DNA from: a virus
IMG/VR virus record: IMGVR_UViG_3300032323_003414
Location: 1-58,208 of that record
Strand: one strand, 5' to 3'
Length of the DNA stretch: 58,208 nucleotides
This document shows positions 616 to 52,680 of the stretch, in pieces. A model generated the notes under the pieces. That model saw nothing but the letters and a program-made list of their open reading frames with translations, had not been told where the DNA came from and made no database searches. Position 1 is the stretch's first letter. Each line of letters begins with the position of its first letter. The translations under genes were made by a program, and so were the position numbers.

Positions 616-1641
616 TTATTGTGCTTCTATAAAATTTAAAATAGTATCTTTGTATGCCTGATGTTGTTTAGGTCCAGGATGTATGTCGTCAGATCCTAAA
701 TCTAAAAACTTTTGTGATAGTTGAGAGTTTTTGTAATGAAGTTGATGGGGAATATGTATGTAATTTTTTTGTGACTGTAAAAATCCCAGCAGACTGAAGT
801 TGTTAGGAAATACGCCAACTATGAATAATTTTGAACTAATTTTTTTGCAATAATTTAAAACTTGTTGTATAGAGTAAAAATGATTGTAAAATGTCTGTTG
901 AGAAAGCAACTGATCAATGTCGATAATACTGTTGTATTCAGGATGTTCTTGATAGGTGGATGTGTTAATGCCTTGCAATAGTTTATTGTCGTGGACGTAA
1001 GTCAACCTGTTCCAAGACGTCAAACCCCATATAACCAGGTCGCCAGCTTGTATATCCGATCTTAAAATTTGATCAGCGGCCCAGTTGATAGCAGATCCAG
1101 GGCGAGTTAAAAAACTACATTCTAAGTTCAAAGCGTCAGCCAATAAAGCACCATAACGTTGTCTAGAAGTTACGCCAATTCCGTGACTGATACTACATCC
1201 TGCAATCCACAGCTGAGGTTTTTCTGTTTTACGACAGTCAACCAATGGTATTGGGTCATGATCCAATGGACTAAAAGGATCAAAGTTTTTTATTTCAATT
1301 GATTTTGGTAACAACAATAATAAAATTTCTGTAAAGCCGTGTGTGCTTTGATCAGGGTTTATGATATCAAAATTTTTGTTATCTGACCATGTCTCGGGTC
1401 GACAATAAAAAATTGTATCAGCCTGACAAAGAATATTATAAACAGTTTCTAAATTTTTTGGTAAATCGCCTAGTGATGTGTATACTGTTGTACTGGATTT
1501 CAGCGGAGACATTATTTTTTTATAATTGTGTTGATCTAACAGCCAAGCAGACTGATCATACTCTTTAGCAATCTCTGCAAGGTAAACAGAGACATCGCCT
1601 AAAAATATTGTTAGTTTGTTTTGAACTGAATGATCTTTCAT
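616..1641 (-). CDS. SGNH/GDSL-type hydrolase-like protein
   Basis: This 341-residue protein carries the marks of the SGNH hydrolase fold. Block I is GCSISHG at about 148-154, with the likely nucleophile Ser150. An oxyanion-type glycine follows in RPGSAIN near 180-186. Block V is DDIHP at 318-322, giving the Asp/His pair of the triad. The family contains esterases and deacylases, often acting on acetylated sugars or lipids; the substrate here is unknown. The first ~140 residues are not recognisable. Its start overlaps the end of the GIY-YIG gene by four bases (1638-1641), so the two are translationally coupled at the end of the gp55-gp46 operon. A role in trimming acyl groups from a glycan would fit the transferase genes elsewhere in the window, but that is inference. 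Confidence 0.7.
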   Translation of the reverse strand: MKDHSVQNKLTIFLGDVSVYLAEIAKEYDQSAWLLDQHNYKKIMSPLKSSTTVYTSLGDLPKNLETVYNILCQADTIFYCRPETWSDNKNFDIINPDQSTHGFTEILLLLLPKSIEIKNFDPFSPLDHDPIPLVDCRKTEKPQLWIAGCSISHGIGVTSRQRYGALLADALNLECSFLTRPGSAINWAADQILRSDIQAGDLVIWGLTSWNRLTYVHDNKLLQGINTSTYQEHPEYNSIIDIDQLLSQQTFYNHFYSIQQVLNYCKKISSKLFIVGVFPNNFSLLGFLQSQKNYIHIPHQLHYKNSQLSQKFLDLGSDDIHPGPKQHQAYKDTILNFIEAQ

Positions 1642-2066
1642 ATTTTATTTTTAATGTGACTACCGTGTACACGCACTTGTATGTGCCCGTTGTAGTAATC
1701 ATCGCTTTCTAACACACGTCTTGAGAATTGTTCGCGAGCTTCTATGTAACTACATTCAGCCTTGGACCTACAGTAATACAAAATTTCGCGAGTGAAGTTT
1801 TCTGTGCCTAACAGTTCAACATCTCGAGATAACTCCGGAGAACTGCCATAATATGTTTGCCAATCTGAGTCTATGGTGCCACGAATTTTTTTACGTTTTT
1901 TGTTGCCGTTTTTGAGTTTGACTACTTTGTATGTTGTTCGTTTAAATTTTGCTAGTTTTTTGCCAATGTACATTCTGCCAGTTAGTTTATTTGTGATCAA
2001 ATAAACAAACCCTGCACAATCTTCGGGTAACTCCGTAATTTCTTGCGATTCGAAAAGCCATGCCAT
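1638..2066 (-). CDS. SegE-like GIY-YIG endonuclease
   Basis: This 142-residue protein begins with a GIY-YIG core. GFVYLI lies at 19-24 and YIGKK at 33-37, the two short motifs that name the fold. A basic stretch and the DSDWQTYYGSS segment (about 67-77) follow, then a conserved-looking Glu-rich helix (SYIEAREQF) that may supply the metal-binding acidic residue. The layout matches the SegE-like GIY-YIG family of T4-type phages, which includes site-specific homing nucleases. It is short and lacks an obvious added DNA-binding domain. It lies between a radical SAM gene and the SGNH gene in the recombination operon and interrupts no gene, so it may have a housekeeping rather than a homing role. 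Confidence 0.75.
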   Translation of the reverse strand: MAWLFESQEITELPEDCAGFVYLITNKLTGRMYIGKKLAKFKRTTYKVVKLKNGNKKRKKIRGTIDSDWQTYYGSSPELSRDVELLGTENFTREILYYCRSKAECSYIEAREQFSRRVLESDDYYNGHIQVRVHGSHIKNKI

Positions 2067-2083
2067 GAATTGTAGTTACCATT

Positions 2084-3097
2084 TTACCACTCTGTTGCGT
2101 ATTTTTCATCTACCCTACTTGTATTACACTTTGTTTGGCATTCCTGCCACCCAAAACTTTTAAATGTTGTTTCCCAAAAATTATCAGTTACAGCATCGCT
2201 CAAATTACGTTGATTCAAATCAAACTTGTTAGCAATGCCTTTCCAATCAGAGTTGTGACTATAGCGATTAGCAACCCAACAGCAAGGAAACAGTCGACCA
2301 CGGGCATCAATGTATAGACCTTTGTTGCCAATTTCACACAACGGTCGTACACCGTTAACTTCGTTGACTGATTTATAAAGTTGAATATTTTTTGCATGCA
2401 CTTTGTTGTTCAACCCACGAGTGCTTAATAGTATAACATCTCTTTCAAATCTATGCGAGTTACTTACAAGTTTTTTACTAGGCTCAAGTGGGTCGTTAAC
2501 TCCGTAACTGGGATAGACTGTGCCAAACTTTGTGCTTTTAGTAATTTGTATAGCATCAAATCCTTGTTCTTGTGCCATGGTTACCATGTCAATCAAATGG
2601 TCTTCGTTGAACTTGAATGCAATAGCGTCCCATACTGTGCGACATCTGCTGGTTGATCGCAAACTTGCAACACCTGCCAGTATGCTGTTAAAATCACTGT
2701 TAACACGGTACAAGTTGTTGGACTCGTTGTTCCAGCCATCTATACTAAAGTGTACAGTGTCAGTGTCCGCTAATGTACAACCTAACTCTTTCCACCACTC
2801 TGACTTTTTGTGACTGCCATTGGTAACAATCACAATCTCAACTGGTTTGACACTTTTAATATATTTGATCACTGGTATAAGATCGTGTGCGTAGATAGGG
2901 TCACCATCGTCGCCGCAGAATGTGATCTTTTCTACATTGTTGATGATAAACTCTTTGGTAAAATTTTTTTTAAAAAATTCTAAATCTAGTTCAGTGTTGA
3001 CCAAACTGTCCGGAACTTCTTGCCGAGCACAACGAGGGCATCGCAAAGTACACTTGCTTGAAATCTCTATATGAAAATGCCAGGTTGCTAGACTCAT
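2084..3097 (-). CDS. Radical SAM protein with C-terminal SPASM-type domain
   Basis: The [4Fe-4S]-SAM motif CxxxCxxC is at Cys16, Cys20 and Cys23, close to the N-terminus. FCGDDGDP (about 60-67) stands in the place of the usual GGEP strand. A second cysteine set lies at the end: Cys254, the pair Cys272/273, and Cys320/Cys324. That fits auxiliary Fe-S binding of the SPASM/twitch type. Such enzymes modify peptides, proteins or sugars by radical chemistry; the substrate here is unknown. The order (core first, auxiliary domain last) differs from the other six radical SAM proteins in this window. The start overlaps the end of the gp46 gene by four bases, so it is expressed with the recombination genes. 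Confidence 0.85.
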   Translation of the reverse strand: MSLATWHFHIEISSKCTLRCPRCARQEVPDSLVNTELDLEFFKKNFTKEFIINNVEKITFCGDDGDPIYAHDLIPVIKYIKSVKPVEIVIVTNGSHKKSEWWKELGCTLADTDTVHFSIDGWNNESNNLYRVNSDFNSILAGVASLRSTSRCRTVWDAIAFKFNEDHLIDMVTMAQEQGFDAIQITKSTKFGTVYPSYGVNDPLEPSKKLVSNSHRFERDVILLSTRGLNNKVHAKNIQLYKSVNEVNGVRPLCEIGNKGLYIDARGRLFPCCWVANRYSHNSDWKGIANKFDLNQRNLSDAVTDNFWETTFKSFGWQECQTKCNTSRVDEKYATEW

Positions 3098-4857
3098 GTA
3101 ATTTCTACATCTGTGTTATAACTTGTAAAGCCATTTTCTTTGACTACTTTTAAAATGTTCTCTACACGACCAGCCAGTTCATCGCGATGCGATACTAGCC
3201 AAATTGATTTGTGACGCTCTCGACTCATCTTCTTCAGCAAGGCCAAACTATTTTCTACGCCCTGTGTGTCCATACCCGAGTCAACTAATTCGTCAATAAA
3301 CAGCAAGTTGATAGGTGAGTACAAACTTTCCCAAACATCGCGGAATGCCCAACTCATACTTAAAATAAGTCGATTGCGTTCGCCACGACTCAAGTTATCA
3401 AAATCAAGATCTCGGCCAAGTTCTGTGATTTCAACGTTGAGATCGTTTTGAAATATGACCTGATGCGGCAGTCCAATACGATCCAGGTAGTGAGTGAGTC
3501 GAGCATTCAAGTAACTTAAATTTTGTTCAATGATCTTCTTACGTATAAACGAATCTTTGTTGGTCAAAAGTTTAAGTAAAAAATCTTGGTGTTCCTGCAG
3601 TCTTGTGAGCTCGTTGAGAGTATCATAGGTTACTACTTGCAAAGCCTGACCGGTCATTTCTTCAATTTGTTCGCCGTATGGATCAGTTTCAGCAGATTTT
3701 TCGGCAATTTGTTTTTCTAAATTGGTCAATGTTGCCTGGTGATGTACAGCATCGGCTTCGTTGTCATAGAACATCTTAGGTGGTTTACCTAACGTGCCCA
3801 GGGAGTCGTGGGCAGCCTGTAGTTCTGATAAGAGGTTGCTGTGTTCCTGGCTTGCCGCTCTTGCACCTGCCAAATCTTTCTGTTTCGCTTCCATAACTTG
3901 TTGGTGCTTATTGTCGTGGAACGGTTGACCACATGTGTGACAGGTGTGAGACTCAAGTGTTGCAATCTCTTTGCTAAGTTTTTCAACGCTTTTGTTTTCT
4001 CGATCCACATCAAGTTTCGTGCGGGAGATCTGGCCAGATAAGTCGTTGATATCCTTGCGTTTCTGATCCCAAATTTTGTACGCCTTGTGCGCTTCAATCT
4101 CCGCTTCAATGTCGATCTTCTTAAGCTCTTCCAGCGCCGTTTGCAACTTTTCAATCTCTTCATCATGTTTTATTATCCACATTGTTTGTCGCCGACGTAG
4201 ATTTTCGATTTGTTCCTCAATGCGTTTGTTGGCTTCCTGTACTGCACGAATACGCATTTCTTCTTGTGTAATGCCGTCTTTGGTTTCTCTGTTGAGTTCT
4301 TTGATGCGTTCAGCACGTTCGCTGAGCAAGGTAATTCCAAGAAGTTGTTCAATGATAGCTCTTTGATCATTGGCCTTAAGACTCAAAAACGGTTCAGTGT
4401 ATGTGTTTAATGCCAGCACATGTTTGAACATGTCATGCGTCATACCCAAGGCTGCCTCTATAGCATCTTGTGTTTCACGACTGTCACCCTGGCTGTTGTC
4501 ATCTGCGGCTTGTTCTTCGTTGTTGACATAAAACTTTAACACATTGGGTTTACGACCGCGTTCAATCTTGTAGTCTCGGCCGTTAATATTAAAGTCCAGG
4601 CTGACCAACATGTTTTTGCCATTGGTTTTGTTGATTAGATTGTCTCTGCGAATGTTGGTAAGAGCTTGGCCATACAACGCATAACTCAAGGCATTGATAA
4701 TTGTAGTCTTGCCTGTGCCGTTGCGACTACCGTCTCCTCCAAGATCCAAATTTTCACCCAACACCAGTGTGAGGTCTCTGCGGTCAAAGTTAATGGCCTG
4801 TGTGGCATTGCCCACACTCATAAAGTTTTTAACGGTGAGATCTTTTATTTGGATCAT
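3094..4857 (-). CDS. 46: gp46-like recombination endonuclease subunit (SbcC/Rad50 family)
   Basis: A 587-residue SMC-type ATPase. The Walker A motif NGTGKTT lies at about 46-52, a long coiled-coil region follows, and a zinc-hook CHTC (Cys306, Cys309) sits in its middle. The ABC signature LSRGE is at 489-493, Walker B LLFIDE at 518-523, and a SHRDE switch near 556. This is the complete order for the Rad50/SbcC/T4 gp46 family. With gp47 it resects DNA ends for recombination-dependent replication in T4, and it probably does so here. The length is close to T4 gp46. In related phages gp47 and gp46 are neighbours; here a radical SAM gene lies between them, with 4-bp overlaps at both junctions. Confidence 0.95.
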   Translation of the reverse strand: MIQIKDLTVKNFMSVGNATQAINFDRRDLTLVLGENLDLGGDGSRNGTGKTTIINALSYALYGQALTNIRRDNLINKTNGKNMLVSLDFNINGRDYKIERGRKPNVLKFYVNNEEQAADDNSQGDSRETQDAIEAALGMTHDMFKHVLALNTYTEPFLSLKANDQRAIIEQLLGITLLSERAERIKELNRETKDGITQEEMRIRAVQEANKRIEEQIENLRRRQTMWIIKHDEEIEKLQTALEELKKIDIEAEIEAHKAYKIWDQKRKDINDLSGQISRTKLDVDRENKSVEKLSKEIATLESHTCHTCGQPFHDNKHQQVMEAKQKDLAGARAASQEHSNLLSELQAAHDSLGTLGKPPKMFYDNEADAVHHQATLTNLEKQIAEKSAETDPYGEQIEEMTGQALQVVTYDTLNELTRLQEHQDFLLKLLTNKDSFIRKKIIEQNLSYLNARLTHYLDRIGLPHQVIFQNDLNVEITELGRDLDFDNLSRGERNRLILSMSWAFRDVWESLYSPINLLFIDELVDSGMDTQGVENSLALLKKMSRERHKSIWLVSHRDELAGRVENILKVVKENGFTSYNTDVEIT

Positions 4858-6374
4858 ATGTTATTATAAACAATCTTTCGGTAGTTGTCTAGCTCGGGCA
4901 GATAATCTTTGAGTTCAATATCTCTAGATTGGTCGAGCTTGTTGTTGATGTTGTAAAACTGAGCCAAAGAAGCAAAGTCAATTACATGTTGATTCTCAAA
5001 GTGGTTGATATAACCATTGATGCTACTGGCCAGCAACGGGTCGTTGGCATAGCACATCAGCGTTTGTGCTCGGTGCAATGATTCTAACGCTTGATCTTTG
5101 AATGGATAAACAAACGGAGACATCCACTGTGGACCTTCGGCCAACTGACAATGTACCAAGGTGTTAGGAAATTCACTGTCAATAAATGCCAGTAACTTGT
5201 CCAAACTTGAAATGTTATAAATTGAAACAGTAACATTAACAGTGACTCGATGGTGCTGTTCTCTCAAGTATCTAATGTTTTCAACAATGGTATTCCAATC
5301 AGCAGGCCATCGTATGTAATAGTTAAGATCTTGAAATCCATCTATACTAAAAACAAACTGAAAATTAGAAAAGTTTTTTAGTTGATTTTTAAAACGAGCA
5401 CTGAGTTTGGTGCCATTAGTATTAACCAGCATCTCAAAATCTGTGTTAGCATTGTTGATGCAGTCATCAAGAAACTGGTAGAATGCAGGCATTACCATGG
5501 GCTCGCCACCGGCTACATAGAGTTTTTTAAGATTATCGAACTTAATAATTTCAAAGCCAGATGTGTGTCTTTTTGGCAGCAGGTCAACTACTCCAATATT
5601 GAGTTTTTTATACTCTCGGGCAATAAGGTGACTGTTAAGGGGATTACAAGTTCTGCACTGTAGATTACACTTGTTGTCTGGACGTACTTCATAATATGCT
5701 GGTGCAACAATCTCATCAAGATCTTCAAGACTGTTAATATTCAAAATATTAGCCCACTCCACAGTTTCTTGTTGTCTAGCACTGAGGATACCTTTGTTTT
5801 CAAGACGATAACAAGAATCACAATGCTCGGGCAACAGTTCTCCAGCAATCATCTTTTGTCTAATAGCAACATAGTTTGGGTCAGTTTTAAAATCTTTAAG
5901 CTCTGACAGTTTCACAATTGGAGTATCCGACCTACAACATACTGTGGTAGAATCAAAATTTGTCAACATCTCAATAAAGGGGAATATACAAAAACTTTTG
6001 TTTTTCTTGACAAGGTCTTCAAAAAACTCAATGTTGTCTTTGTATGTTACATTTAGAAATTTTATTTTAGTTTTAAGACTGTTAAGTAGTCGAACTGTGA
6101 GATAAAAAGAATTAGGATGCTCCCATTGAGTTTTAGGTTGATCCAGCATGATTACCAGATCAAACTCTTCGCAAAGATTTTTCAGTTTCCCAAAAGCCAC
6201 ATCGTACACACTAGAATGATAGTACCCATTTTCTAGATACTGTGCTGAGGTAATTGGACGGTCGAGCTCACTTAGCAGTCCGTGGCATGGCATGTCAGCA
6301 TCGGCGGAGAGCTTTCGTGTTTTAGTATCTGTATCTACAGTATTGTTACCAAGGCATAATACTTTTTTTATCAT
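4854..6374 (-). CDS. N-terminal-twitch radical SAM protein inserted between gp47 and gp46
   Basis: This 506-residue protein has an unusual ~125-residue N-terminal extension containing VLCLGNN and LVIMLDQP strands. The cysteine pattern of the N-terminal-twitch radical SAM family follows: Cys129 in FCIFPF, Cys146/147, and CDSC at 185-188. The SAM-cluster motif CNLQCRTC is at 236-243. A GGEP motif follows (VAGGEPMV), then an FSIDG strand. The family is known from phages and bacteria but has no settled substrate. The extension hints at a partner- or substrate-binding domain that the operon paralogues at 40963-49469 lack. The gene shares four bases with gp47 upstream and four with gp46 downstream, so it is fully embedded in the nuclease operon. 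Whether it acts on DNA, on the nuclease or on something unrelated cannot be read from the sequence. Confidence 0.85.
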   Translation of the reverse strand: MIKKVLCLGNNTVDTDTKTRKLSADADMPCHGLLSELDRPITSAQYLENGYYHSSVYDVAFGKLKNLCEEFDLVIMLDQPKTQWEHPNSFYLTVRLLNSLKTKIKFLNVTYKDNIEFFEDLVKKNKSFCIFPFIEMLTNFDSTTVCCRSDTPIVKLSELKDFKTDPNYVAIRQKMIAGELLPEHCDSCYRLENKGILSARQQETVEWANILNINSLEDLDEIVAPAYYEVRPDNKCNLQCRTCNPLNSHLIAREYKKLNIGVVDLLPKRHTSGFEIIKFDNLKKLYVAGGEPMVMPAFYQFLDDCINNANTDFEMLVNTNGTKLSARFKNQLKNFSNFQFVFSIDGFQDLNYYIRWPADWNTIVENIRYLREQHHRVTVNVTVSIYNISSLDKLLAFIDSEFPNTLVHCQLAEGPQWMSPFVYPFKDQALESLHRAQTLMCYANDPLLASSINGYINHFENQHVIDFASLAQFYNINNKLDQSRDIELKDYLPELDNYRKIVYNNI

Positions 6375-7387
6375 AGCGCCTGATATATTTGTAATAGCAA
6401 TTTAGGATCGTAAAATTCTGATTCAATCTTGGTGATCTGATCTGTGACAATCTGATCCACAGACTCAAATCGAATTTCGCCTGGGGCTAAGTCCTCTTCC
6501 AGGGCTGACCGCTTGTTGGGCATCAATGCCATTTCTCTAAGATTGTGTTTGGTTATAAACGTATCCTTGATAAACCCAGCCTCTTCGTAGCTAATTTCAA
6601 TGTCTAACTGCACACGCACATGCATGTTGGGTCGAAGCAGTTGATCTCCGCGATCGATAAGAGTTGAAAGATCAAACACATTGTACAATGGTTGATCGGC
6701 CCAGGCATGATACCTGGGTTCTTGACCCCATTCTAATATCATGCACCCGCGCTGGTCGTCTCCGGCATCGGCAAAGTTATGAGGAAATGCATTACCAATG
6801 TAGTTGATGTTGTTTTTGTGTTGTCGTAAGTGGAAGTGCCCAGAGAACACTTTGTCATAGTGCCCAAAGTGTGCGGCTTGTATTTCTCCATGGTCGGGCA
6901 TTTCTACCATAGCATTCATTTTGAAATGTGGAAGTTCAAAGTGTCCAAACATATACTTGCTGGACATTTTTTGTATGCGCTTATGATCATCGCCCACCAG
7001 CCAAGGAGCAATTATGACATCACCTTCGTGGAACCAATCGTTGCACACATGTATGTTGGGCAAGTGTCGAGCCCAGGCAGCACCGTGAATGTCACGCTTG
7101 TCTCTGTAGTAGAGATCATGATTGCCAGGAATAAAAAAGAATTGACTGAATGCTGCCGACAGCTTTTCCAGCGCCTGCAAGCTAAAGTTCAAAGTCTGTA
7201 GATTGATTGAAGCACGGTGATGGTGCCAGTCGCCCAAAAACATTCCAGTCTCACAGCCCTGCTCTCGAGCAGTTGCAATGATCCAATCTACAAACTTTTC
7301 GCAATCCTGATTGTGTATGAGGCTATTCGATTTCAGTCCAAAATGGATGTCAGTGAAAACGATAGCCTTCTTGAATAAGTTGGCCAT
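6371..7387 (-). CDS. 47: gp47-like recombination endonuclease subunit (SbcD/Mre11 family)
   Basis: A 338-residue calcineurin-type metallophosphoesterase. All metal-binding motifs are present in order: DIH (13-15), GDWHHH (52-57), GNHD (88-91), GHF (148-150) and GHFH (183-186). This is the nuclease partner of gp46. The complex processes DNA ends for recombination and, in T4, helps to degrade host DNA. The length matches T4 gp47. It follows gp55 after a 14-base gap and overlaps the inserted radical SAM gene by four bases. Confidence 0.95.
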   Translation of the reverse strand: MANLFKKAIVFTDIHFGLKSNSLIHNQDCEKFVDWIIATAREQGCETGMFLGDWHHHRASINLQTLNFSLQALEKLSAAFSQFFFIPGNHDLYYRDKRDIHGAAWARHLPNIHVCNDWFHEGDVIIAPWLVGDDHKRIQKMSSKYMFGHFELPHFKMNAMVEMPDHGEIQAAHFGHYDKVFSGHFHLRQHKNNINYIGNAFPHNFADAGDDQRGCMILEWGQEPRYHAWADQPLYNVFDLSTLIDRGDQLLRPNMHVRVQLDIEISYEEAGFIKDTFITKHNLREMALMPNKRSALEEDLAPGEIRFESVDQIVTDQITKIESEFYDPKLLLQIYQAL

Positions 7388-7401
7388 AGAGTAGCAGTAT
7401 A

Positions 7402-8295
7402 CTATTCTTCGGGACTGTTTGCAACCGCTTCGGCTGCTTTGTTATGACTTTCGGAAAATTGTCGTGTCCAGCTAGGATTGAGTCCGTTTAATTCTAAGAT
7501 ATCATCACGAATATTTTGCATCTTCTTTTCAATGTTTAACACACGAGTAAAGCTGTTAGTGATAGCGGCAGTATAATACGCAAAAGGGTTCTGCGATTTT
7601 GATTCATCGAACTGCAAGCCAATTTGGCTGAGTTGTAGCAAGGCTTGTCCCCGCATTTCTTCGTTGTATGTGTATCCACGCCAGTTACTCCTTGTAGCAT
7701 ATCTTTCGCACAATTTGATAAACATGTGAGCCAATTTATTGGTCATTTTGCCATGATCTCTGCAGAACTCGCCCCCATCTAAGGTACCCTTCCAGTGCGA
7801 TTTGCCCACCAAAAACGGCTGTTTTTCTTCGTCCAAACGATAGTGATAGAAGGGAGGAAAGTTCAATCTCACATAGTTCATGTCCAGCACAGGTACTTCT
7901 ACCAATTCCTCTAAACCGTCAGATTCGATAGAATCATCAAGCTCTAACAGCTCTTCCATCTTGCTTTTTTTGGCTTGTGCTTTGGTTTGTTTTTTAGGAG
8001 CCATGGGTATATGCTCCCAGCAAGTGATGCGAAACACAAGATCTGTGTGCGGAATTTTTTTGTCGTTAACAACCTCGCCGGTTTCGCGTTTGATACGGTC
8101 AGCACGATTTCTACGTGCTTCGGCAACAGTGCGTTGATTGATTTTTTCCAGCGATGGCAAAATAATATCATACTGGTGATCCAGCACAGGATCGCGATAT
8201 GAACAGTAGGTGTTTTTGCTGAAATGTATTTCTTTTAAGATATCTCTATTGTTGAGATAATTGACTTTTTTAGGTGTTGCGGGCGTAGTAGCCAT
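7402..8295 (-). CDS. 55: gp55-like late-transcription sigma factor with a large internal insertion
   Basis: The C-terminal part (about 182-268) matches the sigma-region-2-like core of T4 gp55: KLAHMFIKLCERYATR, then QFDESKSQNPFAYYT, and a basic helix after it. The N-terminus YLNNRDILKEI (13-23) matches the YVNNKELLQAI-type start of T4 gp55. T4 gp55 is 185 residues and this protein is 297. The extra ~110-150 residues lie between these parts and include a Lys-rich patch (about 100-112) followed by an acidic run (114-132). Such longer forms occur in other aquatic T4-like phages. It would direct host RNA polymerase to late promoters of the TATAAATA type. The start has a good AAGGAG ribosome site at 8307-8312 and lies just below a consensus sigma70 promoter. 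Confidence 0.9.
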   Translation of the reverse strand: MATTPATPKKVNYLNNRDILKEIHFSKNTYCSYRDPVLDHQYDIILPSLEKINQRTVAEARRNRADRIKRETGEVVNDKKIPHTDLVFRITCWEHIPMAPKKQTKAQAKKSKMEELLELDDSIESDGLEELVEVPVLDMNYVRLNFPPFYHYRLDEEKQPFLVGKSHWKGTLDGGEFCRDHGKMTNKLAHMFIKLCERYATRSNWRGYTYNEEMRGQALLQLSQIGLQFDESKSQNPFAYYTAAITNSFTRVLNIEKKMQNIRDDILELNGLNPSWTRQFSESHNKAAEAVANSPEE

Positions 8296-8323
8296 GAGTG
8301 GAAGTTCTCCTTGTAATGTAGTT

Positions 8324-8351
8324 ATTATACAACACTCTCACCGTTTGTCAA
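8324..8351 (-). promoter_or_regulatory. Consensus sigma70-type promoter for gp55 and the leftward operon
   Basis: Read on the minus strand, TTGACA (8346-8351) and TATAAT (8324-8329) are separated by 16 bases, and both hexamers match the bacterial consensus exactly. Transcription should begin near 8317, giving a ~20-base leader that contains the AAGGAG ribosome site. This implies early expression by unmodified host polymerase. Confidence 0.85.
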
Positions 8352-8387
8352 ACCTTTTGTGCGATTAACTTAGCCGTTTTTGTTGTC

Positions 8388-8395
8388 GGTAAATA
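8388..8395 (+). promoter_or_regulatory. T4-late-type promoter for the baseplate block
   Basis: GGTAAATA matches six of eight bases of the T4 late octamer TATAAATA. It sits 16 bases before the ATG at 8412, the same spacing as the CATAAATA before gp6. It lies back-to-back with the sigma70 promoter of gp55, so one 116-base gap holds an early/late divergent switch. Confidence 0.6.
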
Positions 8396-8411
8396 CAACA
8401 AGGGAATTACT

Positions 8412-40053: not shown

Positions 40054-40969
40054 CATAGCAGATTTAGATTGCATTTATCTTTCGTACGACGAACCACAGA
40101 AGGAAGAATTCTGGGTACGAATTAAAAACATGGTGCCCTGGGCAAAACGTGTAGACGGAGTCAAAGGGTCAGATGCCGCACACAAAGCAGCCGCAGACGC
40201 CAGCGACACCGAACGGTTCATCTTGATTGACGGTGATAACTTACCACAAGAAAACTTTTTTAATTTAACTCTTGAATACCCAGACGACAATTGGGAAAAA
40301 GCTGTATTCCGTTGGCGAGCACGTAATCATGTCAACGGGCTAATGTACGGCAATGGTGGACTCAGTAGTTGGACTCGTGAATTTGTATGGAATATGAAAA
40401 CCCACGAAGCCACAGATGGCCGAACAGAAACTGAAGTAGAGTTTTGTTTTGATCCCTTGTACTGGCCCATGCATGATTGTTATTCAACTACATACCCCAA
40501 CGGATCTCCTTTTCATGCCTGGAGAGCAGGCTTCCGCGAAGGTGTTAAGATGTGCTTAGATCGTGGACGTAAACCCACTGTCAGTGAATTTAAAGACAGT
40601 GTACATAAACGAAACTTTGATCATCTCTCTATCTGGCACAACGTAGGTTGTGATGTTGAAAATGGGTTCTGGGCTATTGCTGGAGCCCGTCAAGGTACAT
40701 ACATGACCATGCTCAGTGAGTGGGATCATAAAGAAGTACAAAATTTTGACTGCTTAAAAAATATTTGGGAAGCAGTGGCAGCCCCTAGAGAACCTGGCGA
40801 TTTAATCGATCAATACCACGAGCCGTTAAACACACAGCTGGGCTTGCCTATGGCATTTATGCCTCCTTTCCAGAGTGCATTCTTCAAAGATCACTATCGT
40901 AGTAATTGGCATAATCGTGGTGTAATGACCAGAGAGATTGATGTCATTCGGAGTCAAGAAGGATGGTAA
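40040..40969 (+). CDS. Glycosyltransferase-like protein with DGDN motif
   Basis: 309 residues. CIYLSYDEPQKEEFW opens the fold, VPWAKRVDGVKGSDAAHKAAADAS follows, and FILIDGDN (60-67) gives a DxD-like motif. WRARNHVNGLMYGNGGLSSWTR resembles an acceptor-side loop. The same pattern (SDGVNGRAAAYHAAAQAS, NPVNGLEYGHQAM) recurs in the third repeat of the 534-residue protein at 55907, so the two are paralogous over about 130 residues. This family is widespread in aquatic phages, without an assigned reaction. It overlaps the next radical SAM gene by seven bases. Confidence 0.6.
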   Translation: MTQIDIADLDCIYLSYDEPQKEEFWVRIKNMVPWAKRVDGVKGSDAAHKAAADASDTERFILIDGDNLPQENFFNLTLEYPDDNWEKAVFRWRARNHVNGLMYGNGGLSSWTREFVWNMKTHEATDGRTETEVEFCFDPLYWPMHDCYSTTYPNGSPFHAWRAGFREGVKMCLDRGRKPTVSEFKDSVHKRNFDHLSIWHNVGCDVENGFWAIAGARQGTYMTMLSEWDHKEVQNFDCLKNIWEAVAAPREPGDLIDQYHEPLNTQLGLPMAFMPPFQSAFFKDHYRSNWHNRGVMTREIDVIRSQEGW

Positions 40970-42390
40970 ACAACAAAGGCGATGAAATAACATCAGACTT
41001 TAAATCTAAGTTTCTCAGTGATGCCGAAATCATAAAAGAAAAATTAGATTCAGTAAGTCCCAGTCTTTGTTTGGCCAAATGGAAACAGGTCAGTCTGCAC
41101 CTAACCACAGGGCACACAAACTCCTGCTATCATCCACCTCTGCATAAAATTCGTATAGAAGACATTCAACGTTCACCATCGGGTATACACAACACTGAAC
41201 ACAAAAAACAACAACGTCGGTTGATGCTCGAAGGCACACGGCCCAGCGAGTGCAGTTATTGTTGGACCATGGAAGACAATGGCAAACTCAGCGACAGACA
41301 TTACCGTAGTGGTGAGCCCTGGGCCGCACGTGATTTTGAAAAGATTGTTCAAACGCCTTGGAATCAAGATGCTATTCCTAGCTATGTTGAAGTTAACTTT
41401 AACTCGGCATGCAATCTAAAATGCAGTTATTGTAGTCCTCAGTTTAGTTCTAGCTGGATGGATGAAGCCGAGCGTGAGGGTGCATTTCCTACATCAACTC
41501 CGCACAACGATCCTGCATACTTTACAGGCGAGCGCAGGCCTATTCCCAACAGAGAACAGAATCCTTATGTAGATGCTTTCTGGGCCTGGTGGCCTACATT
41601 GTATCCAGAGTTAGAACATTTCCGCATGACTGGTGGCGAGCCAATGATGGATAAAAATACCTACAGAGTGTTTGACTATGTGTTGGCCAATCATAATCCT
41701 CGGTTACACTTAAACGTCACATCAAACTTTAGTGTAGAAGAAAAGTTATGGCAACGTTACAAAGATTATGTCAAACAGTTATGTGAAGGCGAGCGAATTG
41801 AACACTTTATGCAGTATGTCAGTGTAGATGCCTGGGGAGCTCGTTCAGAGTACATTCGCGATGGTTTAAATTTTGATTTACTATGGAAGCGTGTTAATGA
41901 GTTTCTTACAGAAATTCCTGGACGTAGTTCAATAACTTTTATCGTGACCATGAATAACTTGTCAGTGACTAGCTTGCAAGAACTTATGACCGGAATACTC
42001 GAGTTAAGACGAACTCACTCAAAGACGTATCAACGTGTTTGGTTTGACACTCCTGTGTTACGCACTCCTGCCTGGCAAAGCCTACAGTTGTTACCTGAGA
42101 GTTACGCAGATAAGCTACAAGAAACATTGACTTGGATGTCAACTAACCTTGAAACAGAAGCCACAAGATTCAAAGGCTTTAAGGACTACGAGTTAAACAG
42201 ACTGGATAGAGATATTGCCTGGATGAGAAACGGACAACAATTAGATTCTGTGTATGTTGTAAAACAAAAAGCTGATTTCTATCGCTTTTTCAGCGAACAC
42301 GATCGTAGACGCAACACAGATTTTTTAAAAACATTTCCTGAAATGTCTGCCTGGTGGCAAGAATGTGCGTATCATGCCAATAATAGTTGA
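40963..42390 (+). CDS. N-terminal-twitch radical SAM protein (operon copy 1)
   Basis: 475 residues. The auxiliary-type cysteines precede the core: Cys36, Cys55, Cys97 and Cys100. The SAM-cluster motif CNLKCSYC is at 150-157 and TGGEPMMD follows near 223. The set C-x18-C-x41-CxxC matches its neighbour at 43383 but has single cysteines where the other operon copies have a CC pair, so these two form one subgroup. The family (N-terminal-twitch radical SAM) has no established substrate. Its position between a GT-like gene and a TEK-type putative glycosyltransferase suggests work on a glycan or on a carrier peptide. Confidence 0.85.
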   Translation: MVNNKGDEITSDFKSKFLSDAEIIKEKLDSVSPSLCLAKWKQVSLHLTTGHTNSCYHPPLHKIRIEDIQRSPSGIHNTEHKKQQRRLMLEGTRPSECSYCWTMEDNGKLSDRHYRSGEPWAARDFEKIVQTPWNQDAIPSYVEVNFNSACNLKCSYCSPQFSSSWMDEAEREGAFPTSTPHNDPAYFTGERRPIPNREQNPYVDAFWAWWPTLYPELEHFRMTGGEPMMDKNTYRVFDYVLANHNPRLHLNVTSNFSVEEKLWQRYKDYVKQLCEGERIEHFMQYVSVDAWGARSEYIRDGLNFDLLWKRVNEFLTEIPGRSSITFIVTMNNLSVTSLQELMTGILELRRTHSKTYQRVWFDTPVLRTPAWQSLQLLPESYADKLQETLTWMSTNLETEATRFKGFKDYELNRLDRDIAWMRNGQQLDSVYVVKQKADFYRFFSEHDRRRNTDFLKTFPEMSAWWQECAYHANNS

Positions 42391-43390
42391 GCCTGGCCTA
42401 GCACTCAATTATTTAAAACAAGACCCAGATATTCAAATTGACCGTCTAGGCAACTGTCAATCAACTCATTATATTATCAGTCTAGCTACATTTACTCAGC
42501 AGTGGCCGCAAGTACTAGACCTACTAACTCAAGGCAGTATTATTGCTGTTGAAAAAACTGATGAAAGTGTTGTGACACAATGGCATATAGTCAAACATCA
42601 AGATTACAATCCCTGGATTAAATCTGGGCAGTTGAGATTTATCACAGGAGGTGCCGCTCCTGTTGAGGTAAGGAATTTAAACAGCGAGCATTTTTTGGCA
42701 GCAACCATTGGCAGTCAGGCCTATGGTATGCCACTCTTGGACTACAAACATTGTCGTAAACCTTACAATTTTTTGTTTACCAATCGCAAGGTACGCCCAC
42801 ATCGCAGATATCTTATTCACCGTTTAGAACAAGAAGGGCTGTTCAAAAATGCACTATGGTGCAATCACGAAGGACACAGTACCTGGGGGCATCCAGAATT
42901 TAATATCAACTATACCAATGAAAACATTCCAGTGCAGTCTTTACCGCCAGGGTACGACCCAGATCAACTGCCAGACTGGGTAGATGGTATTGTGGTAAAA
43001 GAACAATATCTTGACACATGGTTTAGTTTGGTGTCTGAAACAGTGTTTGAATCTCCGGCTAGTTTTAGAACTGAAAAATTCTATAAACCCATAATAGCAG
43101 GACATCCATTTGTGGTCTGTGCCAACACAGGTTTCTATCAAGATTTACACAATCTTGGGTTTCGATCATTTAATCACTTGATTGATGAATCATTTGATGT
43201 TACAATAAATGGTAAAGACCGTATTGATCGCCTAGTAGACACTGTAAAATGGTTGTGCCAACAAGACTTAGCAGAATTTTGGCAAGCCGCTAGAGAAGTA
43301 TGTTTATACAACCAGCACCGAGCTTTAGAACTACATAATAGCCAGCACCAATATTTTACGCAACAATTGAAAGATTTCATGCATGCCTAG
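42374..43390 (+). CDS. 'TEK' family putative glycosyltransferase (copy 1)
   Basis: 338 residues from the ATG at 42374; a GTG at 42365 is possible. The C-terminal third holds SETVFESPASFRTEKFYKPIIAGHPFVVCANTGFY, then LGFRSFNHLIDESFD. The same TEK-(x)2-KPI...PF...G...GF-T/S-F...DESYD signature occurs in three other proteins here. It resembles the donor-binding end of GT-B enzymes such as the FucT (GT10) group, where a TEK-like motif precedes an aromatic-hydrophobic run. A glycosyltransferase is therefore likely but unproven. It lies between two radical SAM genes and overlaps both. Confidence 0.55.
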   Translation: MPIIVEPGLALNYLKQDPDIQIDRLGNCQSTHYIISLATFTQQWPQVLDLLTQGSIIAVEKTDESVVTQWHIVKHQDYNPWIKSGQLRFITGGAAPVEVRNLNSEHFLAATIGSQAYGMPLLDYKHCRKPYNFLFTNRKVRPHRRYLIHRLEQEGLFKNALWCNHEGHSTWGHPEFNINYTNENIPVQSLPPGYDPDQLPDWVDGIVVKEQYLDTWFSLVSETVFESPASFRTEKFYKPIIAGHPFVVCANTGFYQDLHNLGFRSFNHLIDESFDVTINGKDRIDRLVDTVKWLCQQDLAEFWQAAREVCLYNQHRALELHNSQHQYFTQQLKDFMHA

Positions 43391-44735
43391 ATTAAACAAC
43401 GAAACAGATCTTGAATACAAACGCAGAGTAATTGACATCAAGTCAGAGTCATTCTGCGGAGCCAAGTGGTACAACGCTACTATATGGTTGGGATCTGGTA
43501 TGACCACAAGTTGTCATCATCCGTTGCCGCATAAAGTTGAAATAGCAGATGTTGAGGCCAACCCTAAAGCATTGCATAACACTCCTAAAAAGAAACAGGA
43601 ACGTGAGCAAATGCAACAAGGAGAACGCCCACGTGGATGCGAATATTGTTGGAAAATTGAAGACATAGGTCGCGACAATGTGTCAGACCGTGTGTACAAA
43701 ACTGTGCTGTATTCAGATGAGGATTTAGATCATGCATTCAATTTACCCGCAGGCCAAGATGTGGATTTACAAACACTGGAAATTGCTTTTGACCGTACTT
43801 GCCAATTCGCTTGTTCTTATTGCAATCCGGCATTCTCAAGCACATGGGTGCGTGATATCAAACAACACGGAGCATATCAAGGACTTGTAAGTGACGGACG
43901 TAATCATTTTACTCACCCACACGACTCTGCACAGCTTTATACAATCAATGATGTGAATCCCTATGTGGAAGCGTTCTTTGCCTGGTGGGAGTCAGACCTA
44001 CACCGTACTCTCAAAGAACTACGCATCACAGGTGGTGAACCGTTGATGTCAGGCTACACCTGGAAGTTGTTAGATTGGTTCAAAGACAATCGTGGTAAAA
44101 GTTCCACACGCTTGGCAATCAATTCAAATCTTGGAATGTCAACAGAAGATGTTGTTAAGCTATTAGATCGGGCTGATGGTATTGCATTGGACTTGTATAC
44201 TTCAAACGAAAGCATGTCTGGTCATGCAGAATACATCCGAGATGGCCTGGATTGGAAGCAATGGATCGCCAACATGCATATGCTGGCTAATAGCGGTCGC
44301 CTGCGAGGACTGCATGTGATGTGTACTATCAACGCACTGTGCCTTGAATCATTGCCAGAGTTTTTGGATCACATGTTAGAATTCAAACAACAATATGGCA
44401 GAGACTTTCCAACTTTTACATTGAATATCTTACGCTTTCCAAGTTTTCAATCACCATTGGTATTGCCCGACGACCTACGTCAAGAACGTGGCAATAGATT
44501 GCAAAAGTGGTATGATGCTAACAAAGATAGCTCACTGTTACATCAGATGGAAATCAATCAAGTTCAAAGATTGATAGACTATCTTGACGTTGTTAAAACG
44601 CCTCACTCAGACACATTTGATCGTGCAAGTCTACACAATGATTTTAAACGGTTTCACGAACAGTATGATCAACGTCGTGGAAAAGACTTTACAAAAACAT
44701 TTCCTGCCTTGGCAGATTGGTACAACACATTATGA
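43383..44735 (+). CDS. N-terminal-twitch radical SAM protein (operon copy 2)
   Basis: 450 residues, the closest paralogue of the 475-residue protein at 40963. Auxiliary cysteines are Cys25, Cys44, Cys86 and Cys89. The SAM-cluster motif is CQFACSYC at 140-147, and ITGGEPLMSG follows near 220. Both copies share an HxPLxHK segment (HPLPHKVEI here, HPPLHKIRI there), an HNT-KKQ stretch before the CxxC pair, and a YIRDGL segment later. The similarity and the single intervening gene suggest duplication followed by specialisation. The start overlaps the preceding gene by eight bases. Confidence 0.85.
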   Translation: MPRLNNETDLEYKRRVIDIKSESFCGAKWYNATIWLGSGMTTSCHHPLPHKVEIADVEANPKALHNTPKKKQEREQMQQGERPRGCEYCWKIEDIGRDNVSDRVYKTVLYSDEDLDHAFNLPAGQDVDLQTLEIAFDRTCQFACSYCNPAFSSTWVRDIKQHGAYQGLVSDGRNHFTHPHDSAQLYTINDVNPYVEAFFAWWESDLHRTLKELRITGGEPLMSGYTWKLLDWFKDNRGKSSTRLAINSNLGMSTEDVVKLLDRADGIALDLYTSNESMSGHAEYIRDGLDWKQWIANMHMLANSGRLRGLHVMCTINALCLESLPEFLDHMLEFKQQYGRDFPTFTLNILRFPSFQSPLVLPDDLRQERGNRLQKWYDANKDSSLLHQMEINQVQRLIDYLDVVKTPHSDTFDRASLHNDFKRFHEQYDQRRGKDFTKTFPALADWYNTL

Positions 44736-46057
44736 CTAGTCCAGAAAGAAAATTAAGCAATTACAATTGGAACGAGCGCAAGCCAGTGTATATCGATGTG
44801 GAAGAATTATCAGATATTCAACAACACCGACTCATGGAAAGTCGACATTTTTGTATGATTCCTTGGATACACATGCATGGCTACCCTGACGGTCGTGCAT
44901 ATCCTTGCTGTCTCGGAGAAGAAACACATCCAGTAGGGGATCTTAAACAACATACAATCAAAGAAATCTGGAACCAAGAAGACTATCGAGAGATGCGACG
45001 AAACATGCTGGCAGACAAACCTAGTCGTCAGTGTGTGCGTTGCTATGAGCAAGAAGATGCTGGATTTGCCAGCATGCGCAATAACTCCAATCGACACTTT
45101 GGCCACCATATCAAAGACGTTGACATTACCTTGCCTGACGGCACACATCCTGAATTTGAAATACGTTACTGGGATGTAAGATTCAGTAACATTTGCAATC
45201 TCAAATGTCGTAGTTGTGGAAGTATATTCTCTAGTCGATGGTATGATGATGATGTTAAATTGCACGGCAAACCATTCCGTCCTCGTGTGCAGTATGCTGG
45301 CAAAACAGAACTGGACATTTGGGAACAGATGCAAGAGCACATTCCGCACTTAGAACAAATTTACTTTGCTGGTGGCGAACCTTTGATTATGGAAGAGCAC
45401 AATCGCATTTTAAAAATGTTAATCGAAACAGGTAATACTGGAGTTCGTCTAATATACAACACCAATCTAACTGAGCTTAAATTTAAAAAAGAAAGTGTAC
45501 TTGATCTATGGAAGCAGTTCCCACAAGTGTGTGTTGCGGCCAGCCTTGATGACATGGGAGAACGTGCTGGAATTATACGCTCAGGCACAGTGTGGGAAGA
45601 AGTAGAACAAAACATACGAGATCTAAAACGAGAATGTCCACACATTGATTTTATGATTAGTCCTACTCTTAGTGTGTTAAACATTTGGAACTTTTGTGAA
45701 TTCCATCGATACATGGTTGATCAAGGATTTATTCGTCCGTGCGATATGAATTTAAACATACTGCAAGGCCCTCGCGAATATCGCATTGATATCTTGCCAC
45801 AAGACATCAAGCTAGAACTCAAAGCCAAATTTGAACGTCATTTAGAATGGCTACGACCGCTTGATCACTTGAATCGTGCCACTGGCGGATTTGAAGCAGC
45901 CATACAGTTTATGATGGCACAAGATTGCACTGATATGTTGGCGAAATTTTGGAAAATTACCACAGACTTGGACTGGAGTCGTAACGAAAGTATTTTACAA
46001 GTTGTTCCTGAACTCAAACAAATATCAAAATATAAACCCGAAGGATTAAGAGAATGA
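44732..46057 (+). CDS. N-terminal-twitch radical SAM protein (operon copy 3)
   Basis: 441 residues from the ATG in an ATGA overlap; an upstream TTG at 44717 is less likely. Residues FCMIPW (Cys41), PCC (Cys59/60) and CVRC (101-104) precede the SAM-cluster motif CNLKCRSC at 155-162. AGGEPLIMEEH follows. The pattern C-x17-CC-x40-CxxC is the CC-pair subgroup shared with copies 4 and 5 and with the protein between gp47 and gp46. A leading ~35 residues (KPVYIDVEELSD) are extra. The strand after the core (VCVAASLDDMGE) differs from the usual FSIDG, so the active-site pocket probably differs too. Confidence 0.85.
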   Translation: MTSPERKLSNYNWNERKPVYIDVEELSDIQQHRLMESRHFCMIPWIHMHGYPDGRAYPCCLGEETHPVGDLKQHTIKEIWNQEDYREMRRNMLADKPSRQCVRCYEQEDAGFASMRNNSNRHFGHHIKDVDITLPDGTHPEFEIRYWDVRFSNICNLKCRSCGSIFSSRWYDDDVKLHGKPFRPRVQYAGKTELDIWEQMQEHIPHLEQIYFAGGEPLIMEEHNRILKMLIETGNTGVRLIYNTNLTELKFKKESVLDLWKQFPQVCVAASLDDMGERAGIIRSGTVWEEVEQNIRDLKRECPHIDFMISPTLSVLNIWNFCEFHRYMVDQGFIRPCDMNLNILQGPREYRIDILPQDIKLELKAKFERHLEWLRPLDHLNRATGGFEAAIQFMMAQDCTDMLAKFWKITTDLDWSRNESILQVVPELKQISKYKPEGLRE

Positions 46058-47274
46058 ATATTCCACACGACTCATTTTGTGTGCTACCTTGGCTGAGTCT
46101 TGAGGCCAGTCCTATTGGCACTGTGCGTCCTTGCTGTCTAGCACTAGATGAAATTAAAGACAATGACGGCAACAAGTTCAAATTACAGCAAAGTACTTTC
46201 ATTGAAATACAAAACAGCGATCACATGAAAAAACTTCGCAACGAATTTTTAGATGGTAAAAAACCACAGACATGTAAACGTTGCTGGGATGAAGAAAGAT
46301 CTGGACGTACCAGCAAACGTATGCACACACTAGACAGACTCAAAGGAATGGTTGATCACAATATTTCTTGGAGTGCTGATGCTAAACCTTTGCTGTTTTT
46401 AGATCTCAAGCTGGGAAATATTTGCAATCTCAAATGTCGCATTTGCGGTTCCTGGTCATCCAGTACCTATGCCGCTGAAGATTTGAATTTCTTTACTACC
46501 CCCGAGCTAAAGAAAAGTAGTTTTAGTTATCAAATGCTACGAGATGGAGCTTGGCCCAGAGAGAATAGTCAATTTTGGACAGAACTAGAGAATACACTAA
46601 CAGACATACGTTACATAGAGTTTACCGGCGGCGAGCCTTTTATGATTCAAGAGCACTTTGATTTGTTGAAACGCCTGGTAGAAAAAGGCCTGGCTGGACA
46701 AATTGAAATACACTACAACACCAATGGTACACAATGGCCCGAAGGCGCTGAAGAAATTTGGCAGCACTTCAAAAATGTAGAAATAGCATTTAGCATTGAT
46801 GATGTAGGAGAAAGATTTGAATACCAACGATCAAATGCTATCTGGACAGAAGTACAAAACAACATTGCTAGATTTATTGCATTACGACACAAGCTATCAA
46901 ATATTAGATTACAAATATGTTGTACTGTGAATGTGTTTAATGTGTATTATCTTAATGACGTAGCTCGTTGGATCTACGACTTGACATTTGATTTTGTATA
47001 TTGGAATGTGCTACACGACCAATTCTACTTCAGCATTGGTACATTGCCGGCAACAGCCAAAGAAGCCATTGAACGTCATTTAAGATCACAGACATGGCCA
47101 GAAAAATGTCGTTCAGAAATTGATGGCATCATTGATTTCATGAACAAAGGCACCAGCCTGGATGGAAATTTATTAAGAATGCATGCCAAAGAATTAGACT
47201 TTAAACGAAATCAAAGTCTATCAACAGTGTCACCAGAGTTTGCCGCATTGATTGGATATGAGGTTAATGAATAA
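46054..47274 (+). CDS. N-terminal-twitch radical SAM protein (operon copy 4)
   Basis: 406 residues, the smallest of the five. FCVLPW (Cys9), PCC (Cys27/28) and CKRC (74-77) lead to CNICNLKC-type residues, with the SAM-cluster cysteines at 124, 128 and 131. TGGEPFMIQEH and AFSIDDVGERFEYQRS follow. It joins copy 3 by an ATGA overlap and resembles it strongly (the GERxxxxRS and WxEVxxNI stretches are shared), so the pair look like a tandem duplication. The substrate is unknown. The overlap suggests equal amounts of both proteins and perhaps a complex. Confidence 0.85.
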   Translation: MNIPHDSFCVLPWLSLEASPIGTVRPCCLALDEIKDNDGNKFKLQQSTFIEIQNSDHMKKLRNEFLDGKKPQTCKRCWDEERSGRTSKRMHTLDRLKGMVDHNISWSADAKPLLFLDLKLGNICNLKCRICGSWSSSTYAAEDLNFFTTPELKKSSFSYQMLRDGAWPRENSQFWTELENTLTDIRYIEFTGGEPFMIQEHFDLLKRLVEKGLAGQIEIHYNTNGTQWPEGAEEIWQHFKNVEIAFSIDDVGERFEYQRSNAIWTEVQNNIARFIALRHKLSNIRLQICCTVNVFNVYYLNDVARWIYDLTFDFVYWNVLHDQFYFSIGTLPATAKEAIERHLRSQTWPEKCRSEIDGIIDFMNKGTSLDGNLLRMHAKELDFKRNQSLSTVSPEFAALIGYEVNE

Positions 47275-48175
47275 AATAACCCTTGTGATGCTACCGGAGT
47301 ACGTGAGTGCATTCGCTATGAAGCACCTACGTTCAGTATTTTCTCAATGGTTTGAATTTACCAACTATGAATCAGGAAAAGCCTACGGTCGTGAGTGTGT
47401 GTTTATTACGCATCACGATAAAGATCAAGTTCTAGCCGATCATCTTTGGCAACAGGGTTGCAAAGTGGCAGTAGAAGAGCTATGGGAATATCCTAGAACA
47501 CACCCTCGTTATTATACTATCAATTGTTCCAAATGGTTTTGGTTTAACGAAGCATTTTGGTACATGTCTTTGGGCTACGATCGTTATTACCCAACAAGAA
47601 AATTTTCCAAATTGGCGTTGATGCCAATGGGCAGGCGCCGTCCGTTTAGAGATCAGATTGTTGAACAGTTGGGTCCTATGTTGGATTTATTTGTATGGAG
47701 TTACTACGATCGCATGTTGCCCAATGATCTACCACTGGAACAAAGAGAGCCCGGCGACAAAATGGCCTGGACACGACATTTCAATCCAGACTGGTACGAC
47801 AACACTAGTTTTAGTTTAGTGGTAGAGACTCAAGTCACTGGCGTAGACTTTGTCACAGAAAAAACCTGGAAGCCCATTGCATACATGCACCCATTTTTGA
47901 TTCTTGGCCCAAATGGCACATTAAAAAATCTACGATCCTGGGGGTTCGAGACCTATGATAACTTGTTTGACGAAAGCTATGATTTGGTAGACTTTGACAA
48001 AGGCAAACTAGACATCATCATTGACAATGTTAAAAATTTTCAACCTTCCACCTACGACGATGAAACAAGAGATAGAGTGGCTTTTAATAAAAATAGATTT
48101 TTTAGCACACACATTATTAAAACGCAAATAAAGAAAGACATCGTAGATCCGTTGCAGGAGTTTATCAATGAGTAA
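47267..48175 (+). CDS. 'TEK' family putative glycosyltransferase (copy 2)
   Basis: 302 residues from the ATG at 47267, which has GAGG just upstream; TTG 47252 and ATG 47258 are alternatives. The N-terminal half has a Rossmann-like start (ITLVMLPEYVSAF). The C-terminal part reads FSLVVETQVTGVDFVTEKTWKPIAYMHPFLILG, then LRSWGFETYDNLFDESYD, the TEK signature. It is much closer to the two minus-strand copies at 53663 and 54859 than to copy 1 in this motif. It overlaps the radical SAM genes on both sides. Donor and acceptor are unknown. Confidence 0.6.
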   Translation: MNKITLVMLPEYVSAFAMKHLRSVFSQWFEFTNYESGKAYGRECVFITHHDKDQVLADHLWQQGCKVAVEELWEYPRTHPRYYTINCSKWFWFNEAFWYMSLGYDRYYPTRKFSKLALMPMGRRRPFRDQIVEQLGPMLDLFVWSYYDRMLPNDLPLEQREPGDKMAWTRHFNPDWYDNTSFSLVVETQVTGVDFVTEKTWKPIAYMHPFLILGPNGTLKNLRSWGFETYDNLFDESYDLVDFDKGKLDIIIDNVKNFQPSTYDDETRDRVAFNKNRFFSTHIIKTQIKKDIVDPLQEFINE

Positions 48176-52099: not shown

Positions 52100-52680
52100 T
52101 GAATCAACCTCATTGCTATGTAATTGCACACCCAACATCACGAGTTGTCAATGATTGCATAGCAAGTCTTAAAAAACATGGATGGGCATTTGAAGTCTTT
52201 CCAGCAGTAAATGGTCATACAGTCACAGAACAAACTTGGAAGTCCGTTGGGGTACAAATGTCAAGTAACGGAAAAATGCCACGTAGACCAGGAGCACAAG
52301 GTTGTTGGATAAGTCACTGGCGTTTGTGGAATCGCTGTGTAGACACTGACCGACCCATAGTTATCTTGGAACATGATGCCGTAGTAACAGCACCTTGGCC
52401 CACTGATCTAGATATTGAATCAACTCTAGTAAAACTTTATACAACTGCAGAATGCAAAGTTAATCCAGCATTTGGTCTTTGGAGTAAAGGGTCGTATGCT
52501 TATACATTAACACCTGCACAAGCGCAACGTTTGATTGACTATGCTCGCACCAACGGTGCGCAAGCAGTAGACAAACATCTAGGAGAGCAAGTGTTGCCTT
52601 GGAGATTTCATTCCAAAGATTTGATTGTGCTCAACCCGCATAGAGGTAAAAGCACAACTTCATCAAAGATAAGTTTCTAA
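52099..52680 (+). CDS. GT25-type glycosyltransferase
   Basis: 193 residues. PRRPGAQGCWISHWRLWNRC (62-80) and IVILEHDAVV (87-96) match the GT25 (Lex1/LPS galactosyltransferase) pattern, in which GC..SH precedes an E-x-D motif. Here the motif is EHD at 91-93. The WSKGSYAYTLTPAQAQRLID segment near 133 also fits the family. The acceptor is unknown. The start overlaps the carbamoyltransferase stop by one base. The 3' end overlaps the converging amidinotransferase gene by 18 bases, so the plus operon ends here. Confidence 0.8.
   Translation: MNQPHCYVIAHPTSRVVNDCIASLKKHGWAFEVFPAVNGHTVTEQTWKSVGVQMSSNGKMPRRPGAQGCWISHWRLWNRCVDTDRPIVILEHDAVVTAPWPTDLDIESTLVKLYTTAECKVNPAFGLWSKGSYAYTLTPAQAQRLIDYARTNGAQAVDKHLGEQVLPWRFHSKDLIVLNPHRGKSTTSSKISF

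Follow-up and report, generated by a model that had tools for sequence, protein, structure and literature searches.

Variable genes amid conserved core genes are known from T4-like phages, in which such hyperplastic regions are believed to be a matter of host adaptation, as two reviews describe (PMC2993671, PMC2984593); a slot between gp47 and gp46 is not described in the gp46 and gp47 passages found in these reviews. In T4, the gp47/gp46 junction holds 46.1 and 46.2, two very small ORFs without known function, with a 4-nt overlap at each end. The T4-like Campylobacter phages CP220 and CPt10 have 11-12 radical SAM genes and an interchangeable module of ~10 kb with five radical SAM genes and a glycine-amidinotransferase-like gene (PMC2853527); gp46 and gp47 are not named in the text of that paper. 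Pelagimyophage and marine T4-like genomes carry radical SAM cassettes in a host-recognition island together with glycosyltransferases, and one T4-like genome has 12 radical SAM genes (PMC7029224, PMC5332604). Both cargo slots and T4-like phages rich in radical SAM genes are already known. What the present analysis adds is resolution: a named slot is described both empty and filled, one gene family is seen to move between two slots, and an N-terminal module is shared.

We analysed a stretch of 58,208 nucleotides (58 kb) from a virus record, IMGVR_UViG_3300032323_003414, which we call the window. On its minus strand follow a late sigma factor, gp47, a radical SAM gene that we call rSAM1, gp46, a second radical SAM gene (rSAM2), a GIY-YIG gene and a gene for an SGNH-like protein (Table 1). 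We refer to the gp47-gp46 junction as slot A and to the space between gp46 and the GIY-YIG gene as slot B. A sequence-only reading of the window had placed a radical SAM gene between gp47 and gp46, and profile searches above the cut-offs agree with it: rSAM1 reaches 38.1 bits with Pfam PF04055 (cut-off 29.5) and 255.6 bits with NCBIfam NF033640 (N_Twi_rSAM; cut-off 170) over residues 125-498. In addition to this family match, rSAM1 has an extra N-terminal domain of 125 residues (NTD1), which is predicted to be Rossmann-like. The same reading was right in that the gene shares four bases with each neighbour, as both the gp47/rSAM1 and the rSAM1/gp46 junctions are 4-nt ATGA overlaps; it had overlooked that the gp46/rSAM2 junction is likewise a 4-nt ATGA overlap. 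Its statement that the two nuclease subunits are normally neighbours is partly true, but T4 has 46.1 and 46.2 between them. These share with rSAM1 the junction and the two-ended 4-nt overlaps, whereas rSAM1 encodes a large putative radical SAM enzyme. The rSAM1 gene is not a chance ORF, since relatives were found, the catalytic cysteines are invariant, dN/dS is low and a second contig with the same arrangement is nearly identical (99.99% identity across 13.9 kb).

Table 1. Features of the gp47-gp46 block and of the radical SAM array in the window
Feature	Position	Strand	Remarks
Late sigma factor (gp55-like) at the left border of the block, conserved	7402..8295	-	
gp47, SbcD-like nuclease subunit, upstream flank of rSAM1	6371..7387	-	phrog_100 E=3e-58
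rSAM1, 506-aa N-terminal-twitch radical SAM protein, slot A cargo	4854..6374	-	ATG start
rSAM1: NTD1, residues 1-125, predicted five-stranded alpha/beta Rossmann-like domain	6000..6374	-	
rSAM1: N-terminal twitch region, residues 126-225	5700..5999	-	invariant C129, C146, C185, C188
rSAM1: radical SAM core, residues 226-466	4977..5699	-	C236-X3-C240-X2-C243, G289-G-E-P292
gp46, SbcC-like ATPase subunit, downstream flank of rSAM1	3094..4857	-	phrog_77 E=2e-102
rSAM2, 337-aa radical SAM protein of a family other than that of rSAM1, in slot B (gp46/GIY-YIG)	2084..3097	-	
SegE-like GIY-YIG protein, right-hand border of slot B	1638..2066	-	
SGNH-hydrolase-like protein, N-terminal domain homologous to NTD1	616..1641	-	profile comparison
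Conserved array of five further N_Twi_rSAM genes and glycosyltransferase-like genes	40963..49469	+	

Our sample for slot A comprised 80 gp46 loci and 80 gp47 loci from IMG/VR; from all loci gathered by that stage, 121 non-redundant complete gp47-gp46 junctions were kept. The junction is empty in 44 of them, 39 of which have the exact 4-nt ATGA overlap of gp47 and gp46, and occupied in 77, where the inserted DNA spans 516-4407 bp (median 1345). This DNA harbours 115 ORFs, which were grouped into 33 clusters and lie nearly all on the operon strand (113/115); the occupied junctions show 33 combinations of cargo gene families. The cargo ranges from N_Twi and other radical SAM proteins over AMP-binding, TctC, sulfotransferase, DUF6071 and amidinotransferase-like proteins to many unknowns, with radical SAM proteins being the commonest (27/77 occupied sites). 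Slot A is a hot spot, which reads gp47-ATGA-gp46 when empty and gp47-ATGA-cargo-(ATGA)-gp46 when filled, with the frames still overlapped. As in the hyperplastic regions of T4-like phages, variable content lies between conserved core genes of related phages; here, on the other hand, the slot is of gene scale and inside gp47-gp46, a second one follows gp46, and the ATGA overlaps are preserved. The sequence-only reading had allowed for a tolerated cargo site, and this is what the many unrelated genes among the 121 junctions show; it had also named such a survey result as speaking against a role on DNA or the nuclease, and it does so.

The content of slot A turns over fast. Of the loci whose gp47 shares 93-95% identity with the window's, L007 and L171 have an empty slot, and L170 and L173 are differently filled. 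The cargo of L173 is a short radical SAM protein; in L170 the slot is taken by a radical SAM protein of 464 aa (7014-8408) that matches B12-binding proteins weakly, and such a protein is also found in slot A of L175. In both L170 and L175 it is accompanied by a 134-aa partner, and their gp46 shares 95% and 71% identity, respectively, with the window's. In 68 of 69 loci, the cargo has a lower GC3 than its flanks. The gp47/gp46 junction of PA5oct is without cargo, and those of Sinorhizobium phage Phosso and Agrobacterium phage Atu_ph07 contain small ORFs. We also note that slot A of three loci (L028, 1828-4187; L032; L086) holds an AMP-binding enzyme and a TctC-type solute receptor, which is unusual for a phage replication operon.

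Overlaps were counted at the 69 occupied sites for which an operon-strand ORF was resolved. The ATGA at the gp47 stop is kept at 52 of these, a 4-nt overlap with gp46 is found at 31, and both are present at 28. As these 28 sites hold diverse cargo, the coupling comes with the slot and is nothing specific to rSAM1. Co-expression with the nuclease, which the sequence-only reading had deduced from the coupling, is likely from the overlaps, but it applies to such cargo in general. This bears on the idea that rSAM1 modifies or regulates the gp46/gp47 complex, so that the operon position would mark a three-protein unit. The gene does sit between both nuclease subunits with a 4-nt overlap at both ends, and both homes of its family (see below) lie amid replication and recombination genes. 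On the other hand, unrelated cargo overlaps in the same way, the slot is empty or otherwise filled beside 93-95% identical gp47 genes, most rSAM1 relatives (73/80) do not adjoin gp46 or gp47, and NTD1 is found on SGNH proteins and alone in a radical SAM array. We consider such a partnership very improbable. The earlier suggestion that rSAM1 acts on DNA or on the nuclease likewise finds no support, given the near-identical gp46/gp47 pairs that lack the gene and the location of its relatives.

An alignment-based search gave 125 stretches encoding rSAM1 relatives, of which 80 were fetched (identity about 48-62%). Seven of the fetched copies are adjacent to gp47; around the others no gp46, gp47, sigma or GIY-YIG gene was seen in the fetched flanks, some of which are short. 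The constant linkage expected of an obligate gp46/gp47 partner is not what the family shows, with so few adjacent copies and with close relatives lacking the gene. Most copies outside the slot have a second home, a block with a UvsW-like helicase, conserved unknowns, a small protein labelled 'DNA polymerase', a structural gene, a primase and a DnaB-like helicase, within which they occupy three positions. A tree of 52 non-redundant members unites the slot copies and L093 in a clade with 100/100 support, nested among the copies of the second block, so a single move suffices. By this tree, the rSAM1 gene entered slot A once, from a clade otherwise found in the second replication block; the gene is absent from close relatives. 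Slot A and the second home are both present in the same phage group. For example, in a relative of 343 kb whose gp47 is 94% identical, slot A is empty, the second-home junction is closed, and the best match to the family profile covers only the general radical SAM part.

When the family alignment was searched against 84,980 prokaryote species genomes, the family was not found at the sensitivity applied. Because this search gave only two distant radical SAM proteins, host origin and context are not usable for rSAM1. In the searches made here, the NTD1-bearing family was seen in phage contigs only. Radical SAM relatives of the KVP40 type (24-26% identity) are found in the vicinity of queuosine and NAD genes, outside the slot.

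The three cysteines of the radical SAM core and the stretch G289-P292 are invariant in an alignment of 49 sequences, and the four conserved cysteines of the twitch region are probable ligands of an auxiliary Fe-S cluster. Whole-protein dN/dS is ~0.1-0.2 in four close pairs of the family; between the window and L002 the synonymous sites of rSAM1 are saturated. The genes of the family are intact and evolve under purifying selection. The high turnover of the slot content could potentially be explained by a selfish or neutral passenger, kept solely by recombination in a permissive site and without a selected function. Given the low dN/dS over the whole protein and the invariant catalytic residues, we find this hardly credible.

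The AlphaFold2 model of rSAM1 has a mean pLDDT of 93.1. The structures nearest to its radical SAM core are BlsE (Z 13.8), viperin (Z 13.6), SkfB and NifB (Z 13-14); in a search with the full-length rSAM1 profile, no sequence of a solved structure was matched. The resemblance to BlsE and viperin, weak QueE-like profile matches (E 0.002-0.004) and the location of both family homes in replication blocks would suit an enzyme that produces modified bases or nucleotide analogues during replication, in the manner of viperin or QueE. However, rSAM1 scores far under the cut-offs for both, with 30.7 bits against 180 for the viperin-like nucleotide-analogue synthases (NF038283) and 16.7 bits against 260 for the QueE-type 7-deazaguanine synthases, and both assignments were rejected. 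Furthermore, SkfB, NifB, SuiB and anSME score nearly equal to BlsE and viperin; therefore the likeness seen in the model, including that to SkfB and NifB, is general radical SAM likeness. Close relatives also dispense with the gene. We think that a role in DNA or nucleotide modification is unlikely; the two homes in replication blocks also fit a DNA-related role, though each may be one old insertion.

Alternatively, rSAM1 could be an auxiliary metabolic enzyme or a RiPP-type peptide maturation enzyme with a small host or phage peptide as its substrate. Radical SAM enzymes with auxiliary clusters are typically peptide maturases, their extra N-terminal domains often bind the leader of the substrate, and the structural neighbours of the core include SkfB, SuiB and anSME. 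NTD1, on the other hand, is modelled (pLDDT 87.5) as a five-stranded alpha/beta, Rossmann-like domain and not as the winged-helix fold of the RiPP recognition element (RRE), which speaks against an RRE-fused maturase. In addition, the slot genes abut or overlap, and no precursor gene was identified there among ORFs of at least 50-60 aa, the size range covered systematically. Peptide maturation is possible but rather improbable.

Modelling of NTD1, which the sequence-only reading had proposed together with a fold comparison, gives a five-stranded, Rossmann-like alpha/beta arrangement, and the structural search found only common arrangements of this type (best Z 7.1). The conserved residues are G9, N10, N11, D14, T15, G32, L33, G50, Y52, D58, Q79, H86, F90 and T93. 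In the model, the polar ones among them (GNN-DT, D58, Q79, H86, T93) are mostly located right behind the strand ends, which would be the usual ligand site in Rossmann-like folds. A P-loop NTPase was rejected: the loop after strand 1, GNNTxDTD, is without the Walker A lysine (GxxxxGK[ST]), and the structural Z scores are <=7.1. No Pfam family was above its cut-off for the 47 NTD1 members, no significant match was found among the sequences of solved structures, and tblastn of 50,697 phage records gave no match; the best match among viral models is an uncharacterised phage protein (E=5e-4).

NTD1 had been called unique, which it is not: profile methods indicate that it also occurs on SGNH-hydrolase-like proteins. 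An iterated profile started from the N-terminal domain of the window's SGNH-like protein arrives at NTD1, the two domains align with an hhalign probability of 83 (E=9e-6), and an HMM of NTD1 alone matches short proteins of the SGNH-like set in one step (E=5e-4 and 1.5e-3). In L097 and two near relatives, an NTD1-SGNH gene lies immediately behind rSAM1, and L264 encodes a stand-alone NTD1 protein of 238 aa (7012-7728, minus strand; E=1.5e-19) between two genes of its radical SAM array. We also considered NTD1 for the other ~500-aa radical SAM proteins of slot A and rejected it, as these bear another domain, NTD2, for which no relationship to the NTD1 sequence could be detected (hhalign probability 1). 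NTD2 occurs in fusions with radical SAM, in fusions with a glycosyltransferase-like domain, or as a stand-alone protein of ~190 aa in slot A; its carriers are L024, L181, L224, L232, L048, L057, L019 and others. NTD1 and NTD2 may be recruitment modules of one pathway.

Slot B behaves like slot A and was empty in 21 of 78 relatives in a first survey. The SegE-like GIY-YIG gene is kept at its border in almost all related loci, and could drive the exchange of the adjacent slots. The nearest isolate match of rSAM2 is in Campylobacter phage CP220, at 27% identity. No close sequence relationship was found between rSAM1 and CP220 or CPt10; of the two proteins, only rSAM2 matches CP220. The radical SAM array of the window is, on the other hand, much like their five-gene module. 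It is conserved nearly 1:1 in L264 (48-75% identity), and a carbamoyltransferase gene lies just past it. The pelagimyophages differ in that they are another phage group, with their cassettes in a structural island and not in a replication operon as here. The large relatives that were searched have 4-10 family matches apiece, and the five-gene array may be a core feature of the large-phage group.

Further along the window, four repeated proteins (42365-43390, 47252-48175, 53663-54868 and 54859-55908) have the pattern EKT...PF...GF.TF...DESYD in common; by eye they are glycosyltransferase-like, with no Pfam match above cut-off. An ORF of 4871 aa (19727-34342) lies upstream of tail and modification genes. 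The product of 52663-53709 looks like an amidinotransferase, and similar-looking cargo is seen in slot A of L009 and L010.

Overall, our best explanation is that rSAM1 is a mobile accessory enzyme of a phage pathway for radical SAM and glycosyl modification, to which we assign a probability of about 0.7. That it is replaceable cargo in the gp47-gp46 operon we regard as highly probable. Cargo would be exchanged by recombination within the conserved flanking genes, and the slot would give it expression alongside the nuclease genes without a new promoter. The protein itself would be a working radical SAM enzyme, with one SAM-cleaving and one auxiliary cluster, functionally grouped with the genome's five-gene array of radical SAM, glycosyltransferase and carbamoyltransferase genes. 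Common domains and family membership point to the pathway of the array, and we see about even chances that rSAM1 belongs to it. NTD1 may be the module that binds or recruits a carrier or substrate common to radical SAM and SGNH enzymes. The likely product would be a glycan or peptide modified at the surface of the host or on the virion; surface or virion modification as the role of rSAM1 is a tentative assignment, with the odds somewhat against it. It is maybe also the case, although we find this doubtful, that large T4-like phages have a modular radical SAM pathway, in which exchangeable NTD1 and NTD2 domains (on radical SAM, SGNH or glycosyltransferase-like proteins, or alone) dock enzymes on one carrier, and the parts are swapped via the coupled slots of replication operons and made together with the replication proteins.

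In summary, caution is advisable when the function of a large-phage gene is deduced from its place in an operon: the tight coupling goes with the slot and not with the gene. The analysis defines a phage-restricted subfamily of radical SAM proteins with a conserved N-terminal pocket. Comparable sites within one phage group, with and without the gene and with two homes for it, allow tests of what lies behind the abundance of radical SAM genes in large phages.
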